Under the pieces are notes generated by a model. That model had not been told where the DNA came from, made no database searches, and worked only from the letters and a program-made list of their open reading frames with translations. A stretch of 64,000 bases of DNA from Hylemonella sp. (GTDB lineage Bacteria > Pseudomonadota > Gammaproteobacteria > Burkholderiales > Burkholderiaceae_C): positions 744,001 to 808,000 of the forward strand of contig NZ_JAPZSV010000003.1 in NCBI RefSeq assembly GCF_027532185.1, in the 5' to 3' direction. Of this stretch, positions 13,686 through 22,359 are shown piece after piece (the first letter of the stretch is position 1; every line of letters begins with the position of its first letter). Made by a program: the position numbers and the translations under genes.

Positions 13686-14180
13686 CTATTTGAAGCGATC
13701 GAGCAGGCGCCGGCTCTCGCGATCCAGCGCTGTCATGTCGCGAATCAGGTACTGGACGCCATGGGAGTCCGTGACGAGCAGGGTGTGGCCGAAGAGGCGG
13801 CGGATGTCCTCGTCACCCTTGAGCACAAACTGGGTCTCACCGCGGTCGGTGCGCACCTGCCAGGTGCTGGGCGTGGCAAAGCTGCTCACCGACAGGATGG
13901 CCTGGATCTCGGGCATGAATTCACGCTCGGCCAGCGCAGCACGCACCAGGCCCTGAGCCGGCTCGGGCAGGGCTGCCAGTTCGGGAATCCAGGCCAGCTC
14001 GTGACCGTCGGCATCGAGCAAGGAAATGTCCTGCTCGGGCGCCTGGATGGGGAAGGCGCGCACAGGCACCACGCCCTCATGCACGCTGCCGTCGGCACCG
14101 CGCAACACGAGCTTGCCCCAGGCGTTGCGCGACAGGCCATCGGCCACGCTGCGCAGATCGGAAACCGTGCGAGGGTTCAT
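13686..14180 (-). CDS. DUF1854 protein of the cyanophycin-locus ABC exporter
   Basis: A 164-residue soluble protein of the DUF1854 family; molecular function is unknown. The centre has QDISLLDADGHELAWIPEL, and the C-terminal half is a beta-rich stretch ending in LVTDSHGVQYLIRDMTALD. Its ATG overlaps the stop of the ABC exporter gene by 4 bases (ATGA), so the two are almost certainly co-translated. As I recall, public family catalogues link DUF1854 proteins beside this type of ABC exporter to cyanophycin loci, which fits the divergent cphA genes here. No signal peptide is seen. Confidence 0.8.
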   Translation of the reverse strand: MNPRTVSDLRSVADGLSRNAWGKLVLRGADGSVHEGVVPVRAFPIQAPEQDISLLDADGHELAWIPELAALPEPAQGLVRAALAEREFMPEIQAILSVSSFATPSTWQVRTDRGETQFVLKGDEDIRRLFGHTLLVTDSHGVQYLIRDMTALDRESRRLLDRFK

Positions 14181-16438
14181 TTGGCGTCGTCCTTGCGGTC
14201 GGGATTGGGGCCGGGATCAGCATCGTCCATATCGGTGTCCACGTTGCGGGCCTGGGCTTGGTAGAGGTTGTAGTAGGCCCCCTGGCGCGCCATGAGCTCG
14301 TCGTGCGTGCCCTCCTCCACCACCTGACCGCGGTCCAGCACGATCAGGCGGTCGGCGCGCTGCAGCGTGGACAGGCGGTGCGCGATGGCAATGGTCGTGC
14401 GGCCCTGCACCAGGTTGTCCAGGGCCTTCTGGATCTCCTTCTCGGTCTCGGAGTCCACCGAAGCCGTGGCTTCGTCGAGGATGAGGATGCGCGGATCGAT
14501 CAGCAGCGCGCGCGCGATCGAGATGCGCTGGCGCTCGCCGCCCGACAGGCCCTGGCCGCGCTCACCGACGATGGAGTCATAGCCCTGGGGCAGCCGCAGG
14601 ATGAACTCGTGCGCGTGGGCGGCACGGGCTGCGGCGATGATCTGCTCGCGCGTGGCCTCGGGCTTGCCGTAGGCGATGTTGTCGGCGATGGTGCCGAAGA
14701 AGAGGAAAGGCTCCTGCAGGACCAGGCCGATGTTGCGGCGGTACTCGGCCACGGGCAGGGAACGGATGTCCACGCCGTCGATGCGGATGGAACCTTCGGT
14801 GACGTCGTAGAAGCGGCAGATCAGGTTGACCAGGGTGCTCTTGCCGGAGCCGCTGTGCCCCACGAGGCCCACCATCTGGCCGGGCTCGATGGTGATGTCG
14901 ATGCCGCGGTTGACCTCACGGTTGCCATAGCGAAAGCCCACGTTGCGTACCTCGATGCGGCCCTGCACCTCCTTCAGATGCACGGGCTGGGCCGGCTCGG
15001 GCACGCTGGAGACATGGTCCAGGATGTCGAAGATGCGCTTGGTGGCCGAAGCCGTGCTCTCGGACCAGGAGACGATGCGGCTCATGGAATCGAGCCGGCC
15101 GTAGAAGCGGCTGATGTAGGCGATGAAGGCCGTGAGCACCCCCACCGTGGTCTGTTCGTGCGCCACGAGCCAGACGCCGAACGCCCAGACCACCAGCAGG
15201 CCGATCTCGGTCAGGAAGGACACGCTGGGCGAGAACAGGGCCCAGATGCGGTTGATGCGGTCGTTGACGGCGAGGTTCTGGCGGTTGGCTTCGTGAAAAC
15301 GCGCGGATTCACGCTTTTCCTGGGCGAAGGCCTTGACCACGCGGATGCCGGGGATGGTGTCGGCGAGCACGCTCGTGACCTCGGACCAGACCCGGTCGAT
15401 CTTCTCGAAGCCCGTCTTGAGCTTGCGCCGCACGGCGGCGATCAGCCACATGATCACGGGCAGCGGCACCAGGGTGGCCACGGCCAGCCAGGGGTTGATC
15501 GAGAACAGGATGACCGCCGTCATCAGCAGCATGATGAGGTCGGTGAAGAAATCGAGCAGGTGCAGGGAGAGGAAGACGCAGATGCGGTCGGTCTCGCTGC
15601 CGATGCGCGTCATCAGATCGCCGGTGCGCTTGCCGCCGAAGTATTCGAGCGAGAGGCGCAGCAGGTGGTCGTAGGTCGTGGTGCGCAGATCGGCGCCGAT
15701 GCGCTCGGACACCAGGGCCAGGATGTAGGTCTTGGCCCAGGTCAGGCCCCAGGCCACCAGCGCGGCCAGGAAGAGACCGCCGAGGTACCAGCCCACCAGC
15801 ATGGGATCGATGGCCTGGCCGTTCTGGTAGGGCACCAGCACGTTGTCCATCAGCGGCATGGTCAGGTAGGGCGGCACCAGGCTGGCCGCCGTGCCCAGCA
15901 GCGTGAGCACAAAACCCAGCAAAAGCTGGCCCTTGTAGGGCCGGGCGAAGCGCCACAGGCGCAGCAGGGTCCAGGTCGAGGCCGGAACGGGCATCGGCTC
16001 GACATCGATCGGGCCCTCGTCGGTGATGGGCGGCGGCAGCGGCTGGCCCGTGCTCAGGCTGTGCAGGCGGCGCTGCACCTGCTCGGCCAGGCGCGCCGCG
16101 TGCAGGTTCTGGCCCAGGGTGTGGCACCAGTGGGCCAGGCGGCCCTGGGCATCCGACAGTTCAAGATGGCCGACCCCGGCATGGTCATGCCGGGTCAGCT
16201 GGAGGCCGGCCCGGTAGTCCCAGCTCTGCCAGGCGGTCTGCCCGGGTTCGCGGGCCAGCAGACGGCTTTCGGTGGCCACCAGCAGGCCGCGGCCAAAGCA
16301 CAAACGGCTGTCGAGGTCAACCTCCAGCACGGCCTGGACGTTCTCCCCAGGGTGCAACTGTGTTTTGATGTTGGCCAGCCCTTCTGCCGGAAGGTCGGTG
16401 AAAGATAATGGGAAGGCCGACGGTGTCGCGCGGGTCAT
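14177..16438 (-). CDS. ABC exporter half-transporter with extra N-terminal domain, cyanophycin-locus type
   Basis: A 753-residue fusion of transmembrane and ATPase domains. Residues 1-150 form an unusual beta-rich N-terminal domain; six membrane helices span roughly 165-450 (for example [45 protein letters not shown]). The ATPase domain has Walker [10 protein letters not shown], signature LSGGERQRI, Walker [10 protein letters not shown] and the H-loop AHRLST. The tail is acidic. It would work as a homodimer exporter; the substrate is unknown. It is divergent from the cphA genes with 96 bases between starts, and overlaps DUF1854. Co-occurrence with cyanophycin synthesis suggests a role in that metabolism, by inference. 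Confidence 0.88.
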
Positions 16439-16534
16439 GGAATCCAGAGCCTGGGTAGAGATTTGCTCACACCGATTGTCCCCGTTTTACGTTTTCCATA
16501 CCGGAGACTCATTGCATGTGCTGTAGAGACGGCC

Positions 16535-18751
16535 ATGTCAGAGAGCAAGATCACCGCAGGCCGGCGCCAGCCCCTGCCTAGTTTCATGAGCAAGAACCAA
16601 CTTCAAATTCTGCGAGTCCGCCATCTGCGTGGCCCCAACATATGGACCTACCGGCCGGTGATCGAAGCCTGGCTGGACCTGGGAGCGCTGGAGGACAAGC
16701 CCTCCAACAAGATCCCCGGATTTTACGAGCGTTTGACGACCCTGCTGCCCGGGCTGCTGCAGCACCGCTGCGGCGTGGGCGAGATCGGCGGCTTTCTCGA
16801 GCGCCTGCGCGAGGGGACCTGGGCCGGCCACATCCTGGAGCACATCTGCCTGGAACTGCAGACCCTGGCCGGCATGGCCACGGGCTTCGGCCAGACCCGC
16901 AGCACCTCGCAGCGCGGCGTCTACAAGATGGCCTTTCGCACCCGGCAGGAAGAAGTGGGCCGCGCCGCGCTGCAGGCTGGGCACGCGCTGCTGACCGCCG
17001 CCATCGAAGATCAACCCTTTGACGTCGCCGCCACCGTGGCCCGCCTGCGCGAGCTCTGTGACCGCCACTACCTGGGGCCGAGCACGGCACACATCGTGGA
17101 CGCCGCGACCGATCGCCGCATCCCGCACATCCGCCTGAACGATGGCAACCTCGTCCAGCTCGGCTATGGCACCCGCCAGCGTCGCATCTGGACGGCCGAG
17201 ACCGACCAGACCAGCGCCATCGCCGAAGGCATTGCCAGCGACAAGCAAATGACCAAGGAACTGTTGGCCAACGCCGGCGTGCCCGTGCCCGAGGGTGAGG
17301 AAGTCGACAGTCCCGAGCAGGCCTGGAGTGTGGCGCAGGACATTGGCCTGCCCGTCACCGTCAAGCCCACCGATGCCAACCACGGCCGCGGCGTCTTCAC
17401 CGACCTGCACACGCGCGAGGACATCGAGAAGGCCTGGCGCGCCGCCGACGCCGAGGGCAGCGGCGTGCTGGTCGAAAAGTTCATCGAAGGCGATGCCCAC
17501 CGCCTGCTCGTCGTCGGCCGGCGCGTGGTGGCGGCCACCAAGGGCAAGGTGCAGACCGTCACGGGTGACGGCCGCTCCACCATCCTGCAGCTCATCGACG
17601 CGCAGATCAACAGCGACCCGCGCTGCGGCGAGGAGGAAGAGTTTCCGCTGGAGCCGCTGATTCTGGACAAGGAGCCGATCTCCCAGCTCGAACTCGCGCG
17701 CCAGGGCTACACGGGCGAGTCCGTGCCCCCCTCCGGCCAGGTCGTGCTGATCCGCCGCCACGGCGACCTGGCTTATGACGTCACCGATCTCGTGCACCCC
17801 CAGGTCGCCGCTGCCGCGGCGCTGGCTGCGCGTGTGGTGGGCCTGGACATCGCGGGCATCGACCTCGTCACGCCCGACATCGCCCGACCCCTGGCCGAGC
17901 AGGGCGGCGCCATCATCGAGGTCAACGCCGGCCCCGGCCTGCTCATGCACCTCAAGCCAGCCGAGGGCCGGCCGCGCAATGTGGGGCAAGCCATCGTCGA
18001 GCACCTGTTCCCCGGCAACGACCAGGGGCGCATCGCCATCGTGGGCATCACGGGCACGCGCCACACCACGCGCATCGCGCGCCTGGTCAACTGGCTGCTG
18101 CATATCAGCGGCACACAGGTCGGCCTGGCCTGCCGCGACGGCTACTTCCTCGGCGAGCGCCAGGTCGACGCCAAGGACAGCGCCAACTGGGAGACCGGCC
18201 AGCGCCTGCTGATCAACCGGTCGCTGGATGCCGCCGTCTTCGAACACACCCACCAGGCCATCCTGAGCGAGGGCCTGGCCTACGACCGCTGCACCGTGGG
18301 CGTGGTGACCGACCTCGACGGCCTCGAAGAACTTGGCGAGTTCTACATCGACCATATCGACCAGCTCTACAAGGTGGTGCGCACCCAGGTCGACGTGGTG
18401 CTGCCCACGGGCACGGCCGTGCTCAACGCCGCGGATCCGCGCGTGGTCGAGATGGCGGACCTGTGCGACGGCCAGGTCATCTTCTACGGGCCCGACGCCC
18501 AGCTGCCGGCCATTGCCGCGCAACGTCAGGCGGGGCTGCGCAGCGTCTACCTGCGCGAGCGCCACATCGTGTTGGCCCAGGGCCAGGACGAGATCAGCGC
18601 CATCCCCCTCGACAGCCTGGCCCCGACCAAGGCCGCCCGTCCCGAGATGGTCATGGCCGCCGTGGCCGCGGCCTGGGCCCTGGACGTCAAACCCGAACTC
18701 ATCGGCGCAGGCCTGCGCACCTTCAAGGCCAACCTCTCCAGCGATCACTGA
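16535..18751 (+). CDS. Cyanophycin synthetase paralogue with degenerate, truncated Mur-ligase domain
   Basis: A 738-residue CphA-family protein. The N domain (LRVRHLRGPNIW, NKIPGFYERL) keeps an HxxEH motif at His99-Glu102-His103 plus Glu107, matching the primer-generating hydrolase site described for cyanobacterial CphA1. The ATP-grasp domain looks intact: DANHGRGVF near 280-287, and EVNAGPGLLMHL near 462-473. The Mur-ligase P-loop is broken: GITGTRHTTR (504-513) instead of GTNGKTTT, and the protein ends before the C-terminal lobe. It should therefore not add arginine by the usual route. The layout recalls cyanobacterial CphA2, which polymerises beta-Asp-Arg dipeptides, but orthology is unproven. 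The start is ATG 16535; ATG 16586 (MSKNQLQ) is possible. Confidence 0.88.
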   Translation: MSESKITAGRRQPLPSFMSKNQLQILRVRHLRGPNIWTYRPVIEAWLDLGALEDKPSNKIPGFYERLTTLLPGLLQHRCGVGEIGGFLERLREGTWAGHILEHICLELQTLAGMATGFGQTRSTSQRGVYKMAFRTRQEEVGRAALQAGHALLTAAIEDQPFDVAATVARLRELCDRHYLGPSTAHIVDAATDRRIPHIRLNDGNLVQLGYGTRQRRIWTAETDQTSAIAEGIASDKQMTKELLANAGVPVPEGEEVDSPEQAWSVAQDIGLPVTVKPTDANHGRGVFTDLHTREDIEKAWRAADAEGSGVLVEKFIEGDAHRLLVVGRRVVAATKGKVQTVTGDGRSTILQLIDAQINSDPRCGEEEEFPLEPLILDKEPISQLELARQGYTGESVPPSGQVVLIRRHGDLAYDVTDLVHPQVAAAAALAARVVGLDIAGIDLVTPDIARPLAEQGGAIIEVNAGPGLLMHLKPAEGRPRNVGQAIVEHLFPGNDQGRIAIVGITGTRHTTRIARLVNWLLHISGTQVGLACRDGYFLGERQVDAKDSANWETGQRLLINRSLDAAVFEHTHQAILSEGLAYDRCTVGVVTDLDGLEELGEFYIDHIDQLYKVVRTQVDVVLPTGTAVLNAADPRVVEMADLCDGQVIFYGPDAQLPAIAAQRQAGLRSVYLRERHIVLAQGQDEISAIPLDSLAPTKAARPEMVMAAVAAAWALDVKPELIGAGLRTFKANLSSDH

Positions 18752-18752
18752 C

Positions 18753-21332
18753 ATGGAAGTCCAACGCATCCGCGCCCTGCGCGGCCCCAATCTGTGGAGC
18801 CACCACACCGCCATCGAAGCCGTGGTGCACTGCACCCCCGCCGAGTGCGAACTAAGCCCGCGCCAGAACTTCGGCCTGCGCCTGCGCGCGCGCTTCCCGC
18901 AGATCCTGCCGCTCAATCCCACGGGGCATGATGAGACCGTGCCGCTAGCCCATGTGCTGGAGCTTGCGGCCCTGGGCCTGCAGGCCCAGGCGGGCTGCCC
19001 CGTGACCTTCAGCCGCACTACACCCACCGTGGAGCCCGGCGTCTACCAGGTGGTGGTCGAGTACAGCGAGGAGGCCGTCGGCCGTCTGGCGCTGGAACTG
19101 GCCCAGGAGCTGTGCAAGGCCGCACTGGAAGACACGCCTTTCGATCTCGATGCCGCCCTGTCCAGGCTGCGCGAGCTCGACGAGGACGAACGCCTGGGCC
19201 CGAGCACAGGCTGCATCGTCGATGCGGCCCTGGCCCGCGGCATCCCCTACCGCCGCATGACGCGCGGCAGCATGATCCAGTTCGGCTGGGGCAGTAAGCA
19301 GCGCCGCATCCAGGCGGCCGAGATGGACGTCACCAGCGCCATCTCCGAATCGATCGCCCAGGACAAAGAGCTCACCAAGAAGCTGCTGGCCAGCGCGGGC
19401 GTACCCGTGCCGCTGGGCCGCGAGATCACCTCGGCAGATGAAGCCTGGGCCGCCGCCGGAGAAATCGGCCTGCCCGTCGTGATCAAGCCCAAGAATGGCA
19501 ACCAGGGCAAGGGCGTGACGGTCAACATCACCACCCGCGAGCATCTGCTGCGGGCCTTTGCCGCCGCCGCCGAATTCGACAACGAAATCCTGGTGGAGCG
19601 CTTCCTGCCCGGCAACGACTACCGGCTGCTGGTCGTGGGCAACAAGCTCGTGGCCGCATCACGCCGTGACCCCCCCACCGTGGTCGGTGACGGCGAGCAC
19701 ACCATCCGCGAGCTGGTCGAAGAGGTCAACAAGGACCCGCGCCGCGGCACCGGGCACTCGACCTCGCTGACCAAGATCCGTTTCGACGACATCGCCCTGG
19801 CCTGCCTGGCCGGTCAGGGCATGGATGCGGACTCCGTGCCGCCCAAGGGCCGCCGTGTCTCGCTGCGCCACAACGCCAATCTGTCCACCGGCGGCAGCGC
19901 CACCGACGTGACCGACGACGTGCATCCCGAAGTGGCACACCGCGCCATCGTCGCGGCCAAGATGGTGGGCCTGGACATCTGCGGCGTGGACATGGTCTGC
20001 GACAGCATCCTCAAGCCGCTGGAAGAACAGGGCGGCGGCATCGTCGAGGTGAACGCAGCGCCCGGCCTACGCATGCACCTCTCGCCCTCCTACGGCAAGG
20101 GCCGCCCCGTGGGTGAAGCCATCATCAACGCCATGTTCCCCGAAGGCGAGAACGGACGCATCCCGCTGGTGGCTGTGACCGGCACCAACGGCAAGACCAC
20201 CACCGTGCGCCTGATCGCCCACCTGCTGCGGCAGAAGCAGCTGCGCGTGGGCATGACCAGCACCGATGGTGTCTACATTGACGGCGCCCGCATCGACACC
20301 GGCGACTGCAGCGGCCCCAAGAGTGCACGCAATGTGCTGCAGCACCCGGATGTGGACGCGGCCGTGCTGGAAACCGCGCGTGGCGGCATGCTGCGCGAGG
20401 GCCTGGCCTTCGACCGCTGCGACGTGGCCGTGGTCACCAACGTGGGCCAGGGCGACCATCTGGGCCTGAACTTCATCACCACGGTCGAGGACCTGGCGGT
20501 GCTCAAGCGCGTGATCGTGCAGAACATCTCCGAGACCGGCACCGCCGTGCTCAACGCCGCCGACCCCATCGTCGCGGCCATGGCCAGCCACTGCCGCAGC
20601 GGCAAGATCACCTATTTCGCCGCCGACCCCCACCACCCGGTCATGGCCACGCATCTGGCCCAGGGCAAACGCGTGGTCTATGTGGATCAGGGCCACCTGG
20701 TCGCCGCCGAAGGCGGTACGCGCCACACCCTGCCCCTGGCCGAGGTGCCGCTGACCCTGGGCGGCAGCATCGGCTTCCAGGTCGAGAACGTCATGGCTGC
20801 CGTGGGCGCGGCCTGGGCCCTGGGCCTGGACTGGTCGCTGATCCGCCAAGGTCTGGCCAGCTTCGACAACGATGCCAACAACGCTCAGGGGCGCTTCAAC
20901 CTGTTCCGCTACAAGGGCGCGACGGTGATCGCCGACTATGGCCACAACCCCGACGCCATGCAGGCCCTGGTGCAGGCCGTGGGGGCCATGCCGGCCCAGC
21001 GCCGTGCCGTGGTCATCAGCGGCGCCGGTGACCGACGCGACGAGGACATCCGCGAGCAAACCCGCATCCTGGGGGACGCCTTCGACCACATCGTGCTGTT
21101 CGAGGATGCCTGCCAGCGGGGCCGCGCCGACGGCGAGGTGCTGGCCCTGCTGCGTGCCGGCCTGGGCGAAGCCCGGCGCGCGCGCGAGGTCCACGAAATC
21201 CACGGTGAGTTCAAGGCCATCGACACCGCCATGGACAGGCTGCAAGCCGGTGACCTCTGCCTGATCCTCGTCGATCAGGTCGAGGAAGCCCTCGCCCACA
21301 TCGCGGCGCGCGTGGCGCGCGACGGCGCCTGA
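18753..21332 (+). CDS. cphA: Cyanophycin synthetase CphA
   Basis: Makes cyanophycin, the aspartate backbone/arginine side-chain storage polymer, without a ribosome. The 859-residue protein has an N domain (RIRALRGPNLW), an ATP-grasp domain for Asp addition (KPKNGNQGKGV near 246-255, EVNAAPGLRMHL near 432-443) and a full Mur-ligase domain for Arg addition (GTNGKTTT at 477-484, DYGHNPDA in the C-terminal lobe). The N domain has HxxEL (His67, Glu70, Leu71) where the hydrolase HxxEH would be, and Gly75 where the downstream Glu should be, so primer hydrolysis is probably lost. It starts 1 base after the stop of the upstream paralogue. The frame is open for 140 more codons upstream, but that part is antisense-like. 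Confidence 0.95.
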   Translation: MEVQRIRALRGPNLWSHHTAIEAVVHCTPAECELSPRQNFGLRLRARFPQILPLNPTGHDETVPLAHVLELAALGLQAQAGCPVTFSRTTPTVEPGVYQVVVEYSEEAVGRLALELAQELCKAALEDTPFDLDAALSRLRELDEDERLGPSTGCIVDAALARGIPYRRMTRGSMIQFGWGSKQRRIQAAEMDVTSAISESIAQDKELTKKLLASAGVPVPLGREITSADEAWAAAGEIGLPVVIKPKNGNQGKGVTVNITTREHLLRAFAAAAEFDNEILVERFLPGNDYRLLVVGNKLVAASRRDPPTVVGDGEHTIRELVEEVNKDPRRGTGHSTSLTKIRFDDIALACLAGQGMDADSVPPKGRRVSLRHNANLSTGGSATDVTDDVHPEVAHRAIVAAKMVGLDICGVDMVCDSILKPLEEQGGGIVEVNAAPGLRMHLSPSYGKGRPVGEAIINAMFPEGENGRIPLVAVTGTNGKTTTVRLIAHLLRQKQLRVGMTSTDGVYIDGARIDTGDCSGPKSARNVLQHPDVDAAVLETARGGMLREGLAFDRCDVAVVTNVGQGDHLGLNFITTVEDLAVLKRVIVQNISETGTAVLNAADPIVAAMASHCRSGKITYFAADPHHPVMATHLAQGKRVVYVDQGHLVAAEGGTRHTLPLAEVPLTLGGSIGFQVENVMAAVGAAWALGLDWSLIRQGLASFDNDANNAQGRFNLFRYKGATVIADYGHNPDAMQALVQAVGAMPAQRRAVVISGAGDRRDEDIREQTRILGDAFDHIVLFEDACQRGRADGEVLALLRAGLGEARRAREVHEIHGEFKAIDTAMDRLQAGDLCLILVDQVEEALAHIAARVARDGA

Positions 21333-21342
21333 GACCCGACGC

Positions 21343-22359
21343 CTAGCGGACTTCGGTGCCCGGTGTGCGGCCCATCAGGGCTGCCACCGCCTCGGCTGGC
21401 CGCATGCGGCCATCAAGCAGGGCCACCACGCACTGGGCGATGGGCATCTCCACACCCAGATCCTGCGCGCGCTGCACCACGGTGCGCGCGCAATAGACGC
21501 CCTCGGCCACATGGCCCAGCGAGGCCACGGCCTGGGCCAGGGTCTGCCCCTGGGCCAGGAGCAGCCCCACCTTGCGGTTGCGACTCAGGTCGCCGGTGGC
21601 GGTGAGCACCAGATCACCCAGGCCCGACAGCCCCATGAAGGTCTCGGCACGCGCGCCCAGCGCCAGGCCCAGCCGCGTCATCTCGGCCAGGCCACGCGTG
21701 ATCAGCGCGGCACGCGCATTCAGGCCCAGCCCCAGGCCGTCGCACAGACCGGTGGCAATGGCCAACACGTTCTTGACGGCACCGCCGACCTCCACGCCCA
21801 CCAGATCGTCGTTCTCGTAGACACGCAGGCTGGGGCTGTGGAAGGCCTGGACCAGACGCTCGCGCACGAGCGCATGGGCGCTGGCCGCCACCAGGGCCGT
21901 GGGCTGGCCGCGCGCCACTTCCTGCGCAAAGCTCGGACCGCTGAGCGCACCGGCACGCAGTTGTGGTGCCACCTGGGCCTGAACCTCGTGGGCCATCAGG
22001 CCCTGGGCGTCCTCGCCCGCGGGCTCGAAGCCCTTGCACAGCCAGGCCACGGGGGCCTCCACGGGGGCGATCTGCTGCAGCACACCGCGCAGCCCGGCCA
22101 TGGGCGTGCCGATCACCACGAGGTCCTGCCTGCGGCAGAGTTCCGCCAGAGCATCGACCGGGCCGTCCAGCACCTGCAGGGCCGCCGGCAAGGGCAGATC
22201 CGGCAGGTAGCGCGTGTTCACTCGCGCGGACCGCATGGCGGCCGCCTGCGCCGGGTCCCGGGCCCAGAGCGCCACCGCATGACCGCCCTGGGCGTTCTGG
22301 CTGGCGCTCACGGCCAAGGCCGTGCCCCAGGCCCCGGCACCGAGCACAAGTATCTTCAT
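21343..22359 (-). CDS. gpsA: Glycerol-3-phosphate dehydrogenase [NAD(P)+]
   Basis: Reduces dihydroxyacetone phosphate to sn-glycerol-3-phosphate for phospholipids. The 338-residue enzyme has the Rossmann start [37 protein letters not shown], the catalytic-lysine region [16 protein letters not shown], and [24 protein letters not shown]. It ends 10 bases from the convergent cphA stop with no terminator in the gap. secB lies 30 bases upstream, as in many proteobacteria. The ugp uptake operon supplies the same metabolite. Confidence 0.96.

Follow-up and report, generated by a model that had tools for sequence, protein, structure and literature searches.

Two adjacent cyanophycin synthetase homologues in Hylemonella retain complementary sets of active-site residues

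Why should a bacterium keep two cyanophycin synthetase (CphA) genes side by side? The question is raised by a 64,000-nucleotide stretch of Hylemonella sp. DNA (NCBI RefSeq assembly GCF_027532185.1, contig NZ_JAPZSV010000003.1, positions 744,001 to 808,000 of the forward strand), hereafter the window, in which two genes of the CphA family follow one another on the plus strand at a spacing of 1 base: gene 1, whose 738-residue product is referred to as CphA' (ATG at 16535, stop at 18751, with a second in-frame ATG at 16586), and gene 2, encoding a CphA of 859 residues (ATG at 18753, stop at 21332). A first-pass annotation had proposed that the two proteins lost complementary active sites and form a split synthetase. 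The family assignment and spacing on which it built are borne out; both proteins match the NCBIfam model NF010623 (1021.6 bits for gene 1 and 1263.4 bits for gene 2), and TIGR02068 is matched by gene 2 with 1007.5 bits and by gene 1 with 714.9 bits, below the cut-off of 850. The closest named relative of gene 1, in Curvibacter sp. PAE-UM, is 86% identical; the genome to which the window belongs holds no further CphA of note, its remaining matches being weak (at most 69 bits).

The natural standard of comparison is CphA1, represented by SuCphA1 and TeCphA1 (PDB 7lg5, 7txv and 7wae), whose fold of N, G (ATP-grasp) and M (Mur-ligase) domains is common to both window proteins; while CphA1 carries three sites in one chain, in the window pair the sites are divided over two. 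Residues are numbered here as in SuCphA1/TeCphA1 and their roles are taken from the available parts of PMC9262961 and PMC9427784; statements attributed below to these and other publications likewise refer to the parts available. AlphaFold models of both proteins (mean predicted local distance difference test scores of 90.9 for gene 1 and 88.2 for gene 2) are CphA1-like, each chain resembling a CphA1 protomer, and the best PDB matches by E-value in Foldseek are 7txv for gene 1 (template modelling score by query 0.86, 37% identity) and 7wae for gene 2 (0.93, 40% identity). The sequence alignments and these matches, which compare folds rather than superposing residue by residue, speak against the possibility, raised in the first-pass annotation, that the differences in the N-domain motif and P-loop are products of misalignment. 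Conservation was read in 100 fetched Burkholderiales loci, which yielded 90 gene 1 orthologues and 90 aligned gene 2 orthologues; nine of the loci hold other CphA types, one (L127) has gene 2 only, at a contig end, and a 91st gene 2 (L121) was left out of the alignment with an open frame of more than 1300 residues. A second set of 80 named loci, in 77 of which gene 2 is readable, overlaps the first, so that the two are not independent; counts out of 90 below refer to the order-wide set and counts out of 80 or 77 to the named one.

In gene 1, the metallohydrolase site of the N domain is intact. His77, Cys79, His99, Glu102, His103 and Glu107 (positions 16763 to 16855; H57, C59, H79, E82, H83 and E87 of CphA1) make up a full Cx19HxxEH motif, as first annotated; these residues are invariant in a 60-row alignment (A1), each is present in 90/90 orthologues, and the site is intact in 80/80 named loci. 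In the ATP-grasp domain, the ATP site is intact, K220, K261, R309, D431 and E450 are each retained in 90/90 and H267 in 88/90, and in the window the P-loop with Lys277 (K261) and His283 (H267) lies at 17363 to 17392. Of the residues surrounding the incoming aspartate in TeCphA1 (Asn394, Ser396, Arg323 and Arg458; PMC9427784), however, Arg323, Ser396 and Arg458 are each found in 0/90 and 0/80 gene 1 proteins: the position of Arg323 is occupied by glycine in 86/90 (Gly337 in the window, 17543 to 17545) and that of Arg458 by leucine in 88/90 (Leu470, 17942 to 17944). An asparagine aligns with Asn394 in 86/90, an equivalence that is unsure because it adjoins a loop deletion present in 90/90. The claim that gene 1 keeps its ATP-grasp motifs thus holds for the ATP site and fails for the aspartate pocket. 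In the M domain, the P-loop reads GITGTRHTTR (GTRHTTR at 18053 to 18073), with threonine in place of Lys499, a lysine kept in 31/90; the last aligned residue corresponds to residue 729 of SuCphA1, where the border between Mcore and Mlid is published at 723/724 (PMC9427784), and the protein is without a lid, in agreement with the C-terminal lobe first noted as missing. In three further pairs, from a family outside the order (L232 to L234), the ATP-grasp site of gene 1 shows erosion: L232 has lost Glu450 and His267, L234 several residues and L233, among those checked, His267 alone. The N-domain site is nevertheless intact in 3/3, so that of the catalytic features of gene 1 the hydrolase site alone is retained throughout the rows read.

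The losses of gene 2 lie elsewhere. Its N-domain helix survives as a remnant, HVLELAALG (18951 to 18977), in which the motif reads HVLEL and glycine stands at the position of Glu87, just as initially described, and a complete N-domain site occurs in 0/91 gene 2 proteins, that of the window included. The ATP-grasp residues K220, K261, R309, D431 and E450 are present in 90/90, as are all four aspartate-pocket residues, R323, N394, S396 and R458. The Mur-ligase motifs GTNGKTTT (GTNGKTT at 20181 to 20201) and DYGHNPDA also read as claimed and the lid module is present; Gly495, Asn497, Gly498, Lys499, Thr500, Thr501, Glu558, Asp585 and His586 are each found in 90/90 and Thr496 in 87/90. For the residues checked, the aspartate-adding and arginine-adding sites of gene 2 (18753 to 21332) are therefore complete except for two replacements, His267 by glutamine and Glu215 by serine. 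Position 267 is glutamine in 88/90 (Gln251 in the window, 19503 to 19505) and histidine in 2/90, and Gln267 accompanies R323, N394, S396 and R458 in 77/77 readable named loci. Together the window proteins carry every checked residue of the three sites except Glu215, His267 being found only in gene 1. As gene 1 retains the N-domain site and gene 2 the aspartate and Mur residues, the losses are complementary, as had been proposed, and the pattern recurs in the 90 order loci and the 80 named loci. A stricter rule of exactly one His267 per pair, by reciprocal exchange, was rejected, since the gene 1/gene 2 combinations in 89 pairs are H/Q in 85, R/Q in 2 and H/H in 2. All 15 canonical CphA1 proteins read for comparison (11 from outside the order and 4 from L038 to L041) combine a full N-domain site with the aspartate and Mur residues, with serine for Thr500 in 2.

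The same division is visible at the level of whole modules. With invariant columns defined as those conserved in at least 97% of rows, gene 1 and gene 2 have, respectively, 36 and 18 such columns in the N domain, 65 and 71 in Gcore, 21 and 9 in Glid, 9 and 24 in Gomega, 15 and 67 in Mcore, and 0 and 53 in Mlid. The last aligned residue of gene 1 falls at 722 to 737 in 44/91 rows, adjoining the published Mcore/Mlid border; the other lid-less rows show scattered residues past the border, with at most 17% of positions 735 to 860 filled. Lid sequence remains in 10 of 91 gene 1 proteins (the one in the window being counted among the 91), comprising most of the lid in nine and about half of it in one, and these proteins provide an internal control: the GK499T motif and the Asp585-His586 pair are found in 10/10 lid-bearing proteins and in 0/81 of the others, the N-domain site being present in all. 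The lid-bearing versions with an intact Mur-ligase motif (L060, L073, L082, L095, L098, L101, L104, L109, L111 and L075) apparently represent an earlier stage of the partition. Gene conversion as the source of these ten lids is unsupported; their identity to the lid of their own gene 2 is 27-41%, and their mean identity to the other nine is 29-52%, in each row above the mean to the gene 2 lids of other loci. Lid loss amounts to 20 losses by Dollo parsimony and 5 changes by Fitch parsimony; the support at the common node is 0.28, so that no number of losses is claimed.

A FastTree phylogeny of 31 gene 1, 31 gene 2 and 25 other CphA proteins places the two genes in sister clades (support 1.0 for both together, 1.0 for gene 1 and 0.957 for gene 2), and a tree built from the G domain only agrees (0.992, 1.0 and 0.968, respectively). 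The simplest reading of these trees is one old duplication that preceded the spread of the pair through the Burkholderiales. In all 171 pairs obtained by pooling the order, named and L232 to L234 loci, in which some genomes are counted twice, the two genes are adjacent and on the same strand.

On these data, we favour, with a probability of about 0.55, an account in which a CphA1-type enzyme was duplicated once and its three activities were divided, gene 2 providing the polymerase subunit and gene 1 the primer-making subunit. With both ligase sites kept and no primer-making site of its own, gene 2 should elongate a primer, its ATP-grasp domain adding aspartate to the chain end and its Mur-ligase domain adding the side-chain residue, which is arginine in known CphA1. 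Gene 1, with its aspartate pocket and Mur site lost, should not elongate; its N domain would cut the polymer into short primers, and its Gcore and Mcore would mainly be a scaffold, still able to bind ATP and perhaps the chain end, though not to place aspartate. The two proteins most likely assemble through their G and M cores like CphA1 protomers: the oligomer contacts of TeCphA1 are made by Gcore and Mcore (PMC9427784), and gene 1 keeps both of these cores while losing Mlid, which favours a mixed oligomer. Of the division of labour first put forward, the split synthetase and gene 1 as a possible primer source can thus be retained, and the assignments of aspartate or Asp-Arg addition to gene 1 and of arginine addition alone to gene 2 are given up. 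Work on CphA1 (PMC9262961) offers precedents for such a split. The N-domain hydrolase site is reported in 83% of CphA1 enzymes; its E82Q variant in SuCphA1 abolishes primer-free synthesis and keeps primer-dependent synthesis; the isolated SuCphA1 N domain supplied in trans gives TmCphA1 primer-free activity; and an engineered SuCphA1 heterodimer in which one protomer supplies the N site and its partner the G and M sites equals the all-in-one heterodimer when primer is added.

Several observations weigh against this account. The same engineered heterodimer is somewhat less active than the all-in-one version when primer is omitted (PMC9262961). The five ATP-grasp residues conserved throughout gene 1 (K220, K261, R309, D431 and E450, 90/90) go beyond the needs of a mere scaffold. 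Replacement of His267 by alanine lowers CphA1 activity (PMC9427784), and the aspartate-adding site of gene 2, which has glutamine there, may be weakened. Glu215, by which the terminal arginine is recognised from across the Gcore dimer, is mostly replaced in both proteins, although this says little, because 4 of the 15 canonical relatives have glycine at this position and glutamate aligns there in 15 of the 80 named gene 1 proteins. Trp672 of SuCphA1, a tetramer contact, is conserved in neither gene 1 nor gene 2. Finally, reviews state that the homologues of Ralstonia eutropha H16, overexpressed or produced in Escherichia coli, still gave no cyanophycin, co-expression of the two not being stated in them.

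The neighbouring genes bear on what the pair might make. Divergent from gene 1, across a gap of 96 bases, lies a gene for an ATP-binding cassette (ABC) exporter (14177 to 16438, minus strand) that matches NF052233, "cyanophycin metabolism-associated ABC transporter", with 1338.2 bits; it overlaps by 4 bases a gene on the same strand (13686 to 14180) for a protein matching NF052234, "cyanophycin metabolism-associated DUF1854 family protein", with 232.7 bits. The transporter gene shares the fetched stretch with the pair in 163/171 loci and the DUF1854 gene in 158/171, some of the misses being due to contig ends; in five genomes (G112, G137, G190, G198 and G369) DUF1854 is found elsewhere in the genome. 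The transporter resembles exporters, in that models of MsbA, HlyB and peptide export match it below their cut-offs. Among 399 genomes of the order, a CphA match was found in 154 and DUF1854 in 137, all 137 falling within the 154; one DUF1854 genome (G029) has a single CphA match. Of the 17 CphA genomes without DUF1854, 9 have cyanophycinase and CphA of canonical type (read in 4 of them), 7 show a lone weak match, and in the last, G263, the contig breaks off within the transporter. At a threshold of 1e-10, a cyanophycinase match is present in 9/9 canonical-type genomes, and among the 137 genomes that combine DUF1854 with CphA 15 have one and 122 have none; the genome of the window has no match to cyanophycinase or to isoaspartyl dipeptidases of the IaaA or IadA type. 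The complementary retention of active sites, together with the transporter gene that accompanies the pair across many relatives, suggests a shared machine, the product of which may leave the cell.

Other roles for gene 1 can be weighed against these data. The missing cyanophycinase and isoaspartyl dipeptidases, together with a hydrolase site that is the only one gene 1 keeps everywhere, would suit a separate depolymerase, its N domain breaking down or trimming what gene 2 has polymerised and its G domain only binding the chain and ATP; but published N-domain hydrolysis is slow and endo-acting (PMC9262961), and gene 1 keeps the oligomer-forming cores and adjoins gene 2 in 171/171 pairs, so that we consider this role rather unlikely. 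The original proposal, that gene 1 makes primers and adds aspartate (or Asp-Arg) while gene 2 adds arginine, could appeal to His267 and the ATP residues kept in gene 1 and to Gln267 in gene 2. It is nevertheless very improbable and was rejected on its residues, since R323, S396 and R458 of the aspartate pocket are at 0/90 in gene 1 against 90/90 in gene 2 and ATP or metal residues of gene 1 are also gone in L232 and L234. Least probable, and already disfavoured, is a decaying duplicate without function, an idea to which the Mur P-loop, variable between species, and the mostly missing lid lend some colour, but against which stand the N-domain site, invariant in both sets, the open frame and the constant company of gene 2. 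The analogy with CphA2, a polymerase of beta-Asp-Arg dipeptides (PDB 7ta5 and 8fxh; 629 and 642 residues), that had been suggested extends to gene 1 being, like CphA2, a CphA relative shorter than CphA1; it fails at the N-domain site, as CphA2 is described as lacking the motif (PMC9262961) that gene 1 keeps, and by sequence gene 1 is nearer to CphA1 (468 bits) than to CphA2 (181 bits).

The nature of the product is a further matter. Primer supply by gene 1 does not account for the conserved ATP site of its G domain, for the uniform glycine and leucine at its pocket arginines or for Gln267 of gene 2; these features, the exporter and the missing cyanophycinase would allow for a product that is not storage cyanophycin. 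The module might make, in place of cyanophycin, an isopeptide polymer or oligomer related to it, which the transporter with the DUF1854 protein would export, the G pocket of gene 1 being remodelled to join the chain end to a different amine, by capping or attachment. The co-occurrence of DUF1854 with CphA (137/137 genomes), the exporter-like transporter and mostly absent cyanophycinase, and the reported lack of cyanophycin in R. eutropha are in keeping with this idea, as are the changes in gene 1 (Arg323 to Gly, Arg458 to Leu and the loop deletion, with ATP residues retained), which are uniform rather than the random outcome of decay. The loss of Glu215, however, is not special to the pair, given the four canonical relatives without it, and ATP or metal residues of gene 1 are lost in 2 of the 3 pairs from outside the order, which implies that its ATP-grasp site is not essential everywhere; such a product seems unlikely. 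A more specific version would be an isopeptide synthetase of two subunits, linked to export and separate from storage cyanophycin. Gene 2 would build the chain, gene 1 would use its N domain to trim it to a defined length and its remodelled ATP-grasp pocket to activate the end for an amine other than aspartate, and the ABC exporter, together with DUF1854, would carry the product out of the cell; we regard this picture as speculative and on the whole unlikely.

Parts of this system are already known. Tandem cphA genes with an ABC transporter and no cphB were described as "Group 1" clusters in several activated-sludge taxa by Farmer et al. 2023 (PMC10687191), an arrangement like that of the window, and both copies are evenly expressed in Accumulibacter; the association of the ABC and DUF1854 families with cyanophycin is embodied in their NCBIfam names. 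Neither the loss of active sites nor a division of labour nor DUF1854 is taken up in the parts of that paper and of the R. eutropha reviews considered here, and no published account of the active-site partition was found in a search that left subscription journals mostly outside its reach and is thus weak evidence of absence. If the primer-making and polymerase roles proposed here hold, the pair would show clearly how active sites can be lost in complementary fashion in nature, with a three-site polymerase divided by duplication and conserved across many Burkholderiales, much as the split engineered in SuCphA1 works (PMC9262961). It could also bear on R. eutropha H16, which according to reviews citing Adames et al. 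2013 has two cyanophycin synthetase homologues and no detectable cyanophycin: these are probably of the present pair type, because six other Cupriavidus loci have the full module (L164, L170, L183, L186, L209 and L211), and a possible reason for the missing polymer is that each homologue alone lacks the other's part, or that the product is trimmed or exported. For a large group of annotated "cyanophycin synthetases", annotation would then be evidence of nitrogen storage only when joined by product data. In Variovorax paradoxus EPS, the cyanophycin synthetase Varpa_1128 appears with a 27.39-fold change in a table taken to list biofilm-induced genes.

Several minor observations concern the arrangement of the module and its control. 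Six loci (L056, L061, L065, L076, L114 and L122) show a rearranged module, with the transporter and DUF1854 genes upstream of gene 1 and co-directional with the pair. Distant ABC and DUF1854 gene pairs (38-40% and 27-33% identical, respectively) occur with no CphA in the fetched stretch (L228:6929-9718, L229:7385-10223 and L230:2573-5304), so that these two genes may constitute an independent unit; the context of these distant pairs gives no hint of a substrate. A simple sigma-70 promoter scan of positions 16300 to 21500 returned 0 sites, and 154 regions between transporter and gene 1 showed no common regulator signal (NtrC-like sites in 2, against 2.8 in shuffled sequence; ArgR-like in 2, against 1.8; sigma-54-like in 2, against 0.2). 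A frequent 8-mer in this region was dropped as a regulator site, as it is not a palindrome and was taken for a -10 box.

Other multi-gene arrangements of CphA are distinct from the pair. In L038 to L041 and L238 to L243, CphA also stands in tandem with a second gene, but the CphA there is complete and the second gene, 579-720 residues from stop to stop, matches the Mur-ligase part only; a cyanophycinase match lies nearby in L038 to L041. Nine CphA proteins of another type (from L042, L045, L107, L129 and L136) carry Gln267 and a degenerate N-domain site, but their aspartate and Mur sites are complete. In L042, L107, L129 and L136, two full-length CphA genes of this kind, both with degenerate N-domain sites and Gln267, face each other, and a cyanophycinase match adjoins one of them; in these loci, primers might come from the cyanophycinase.

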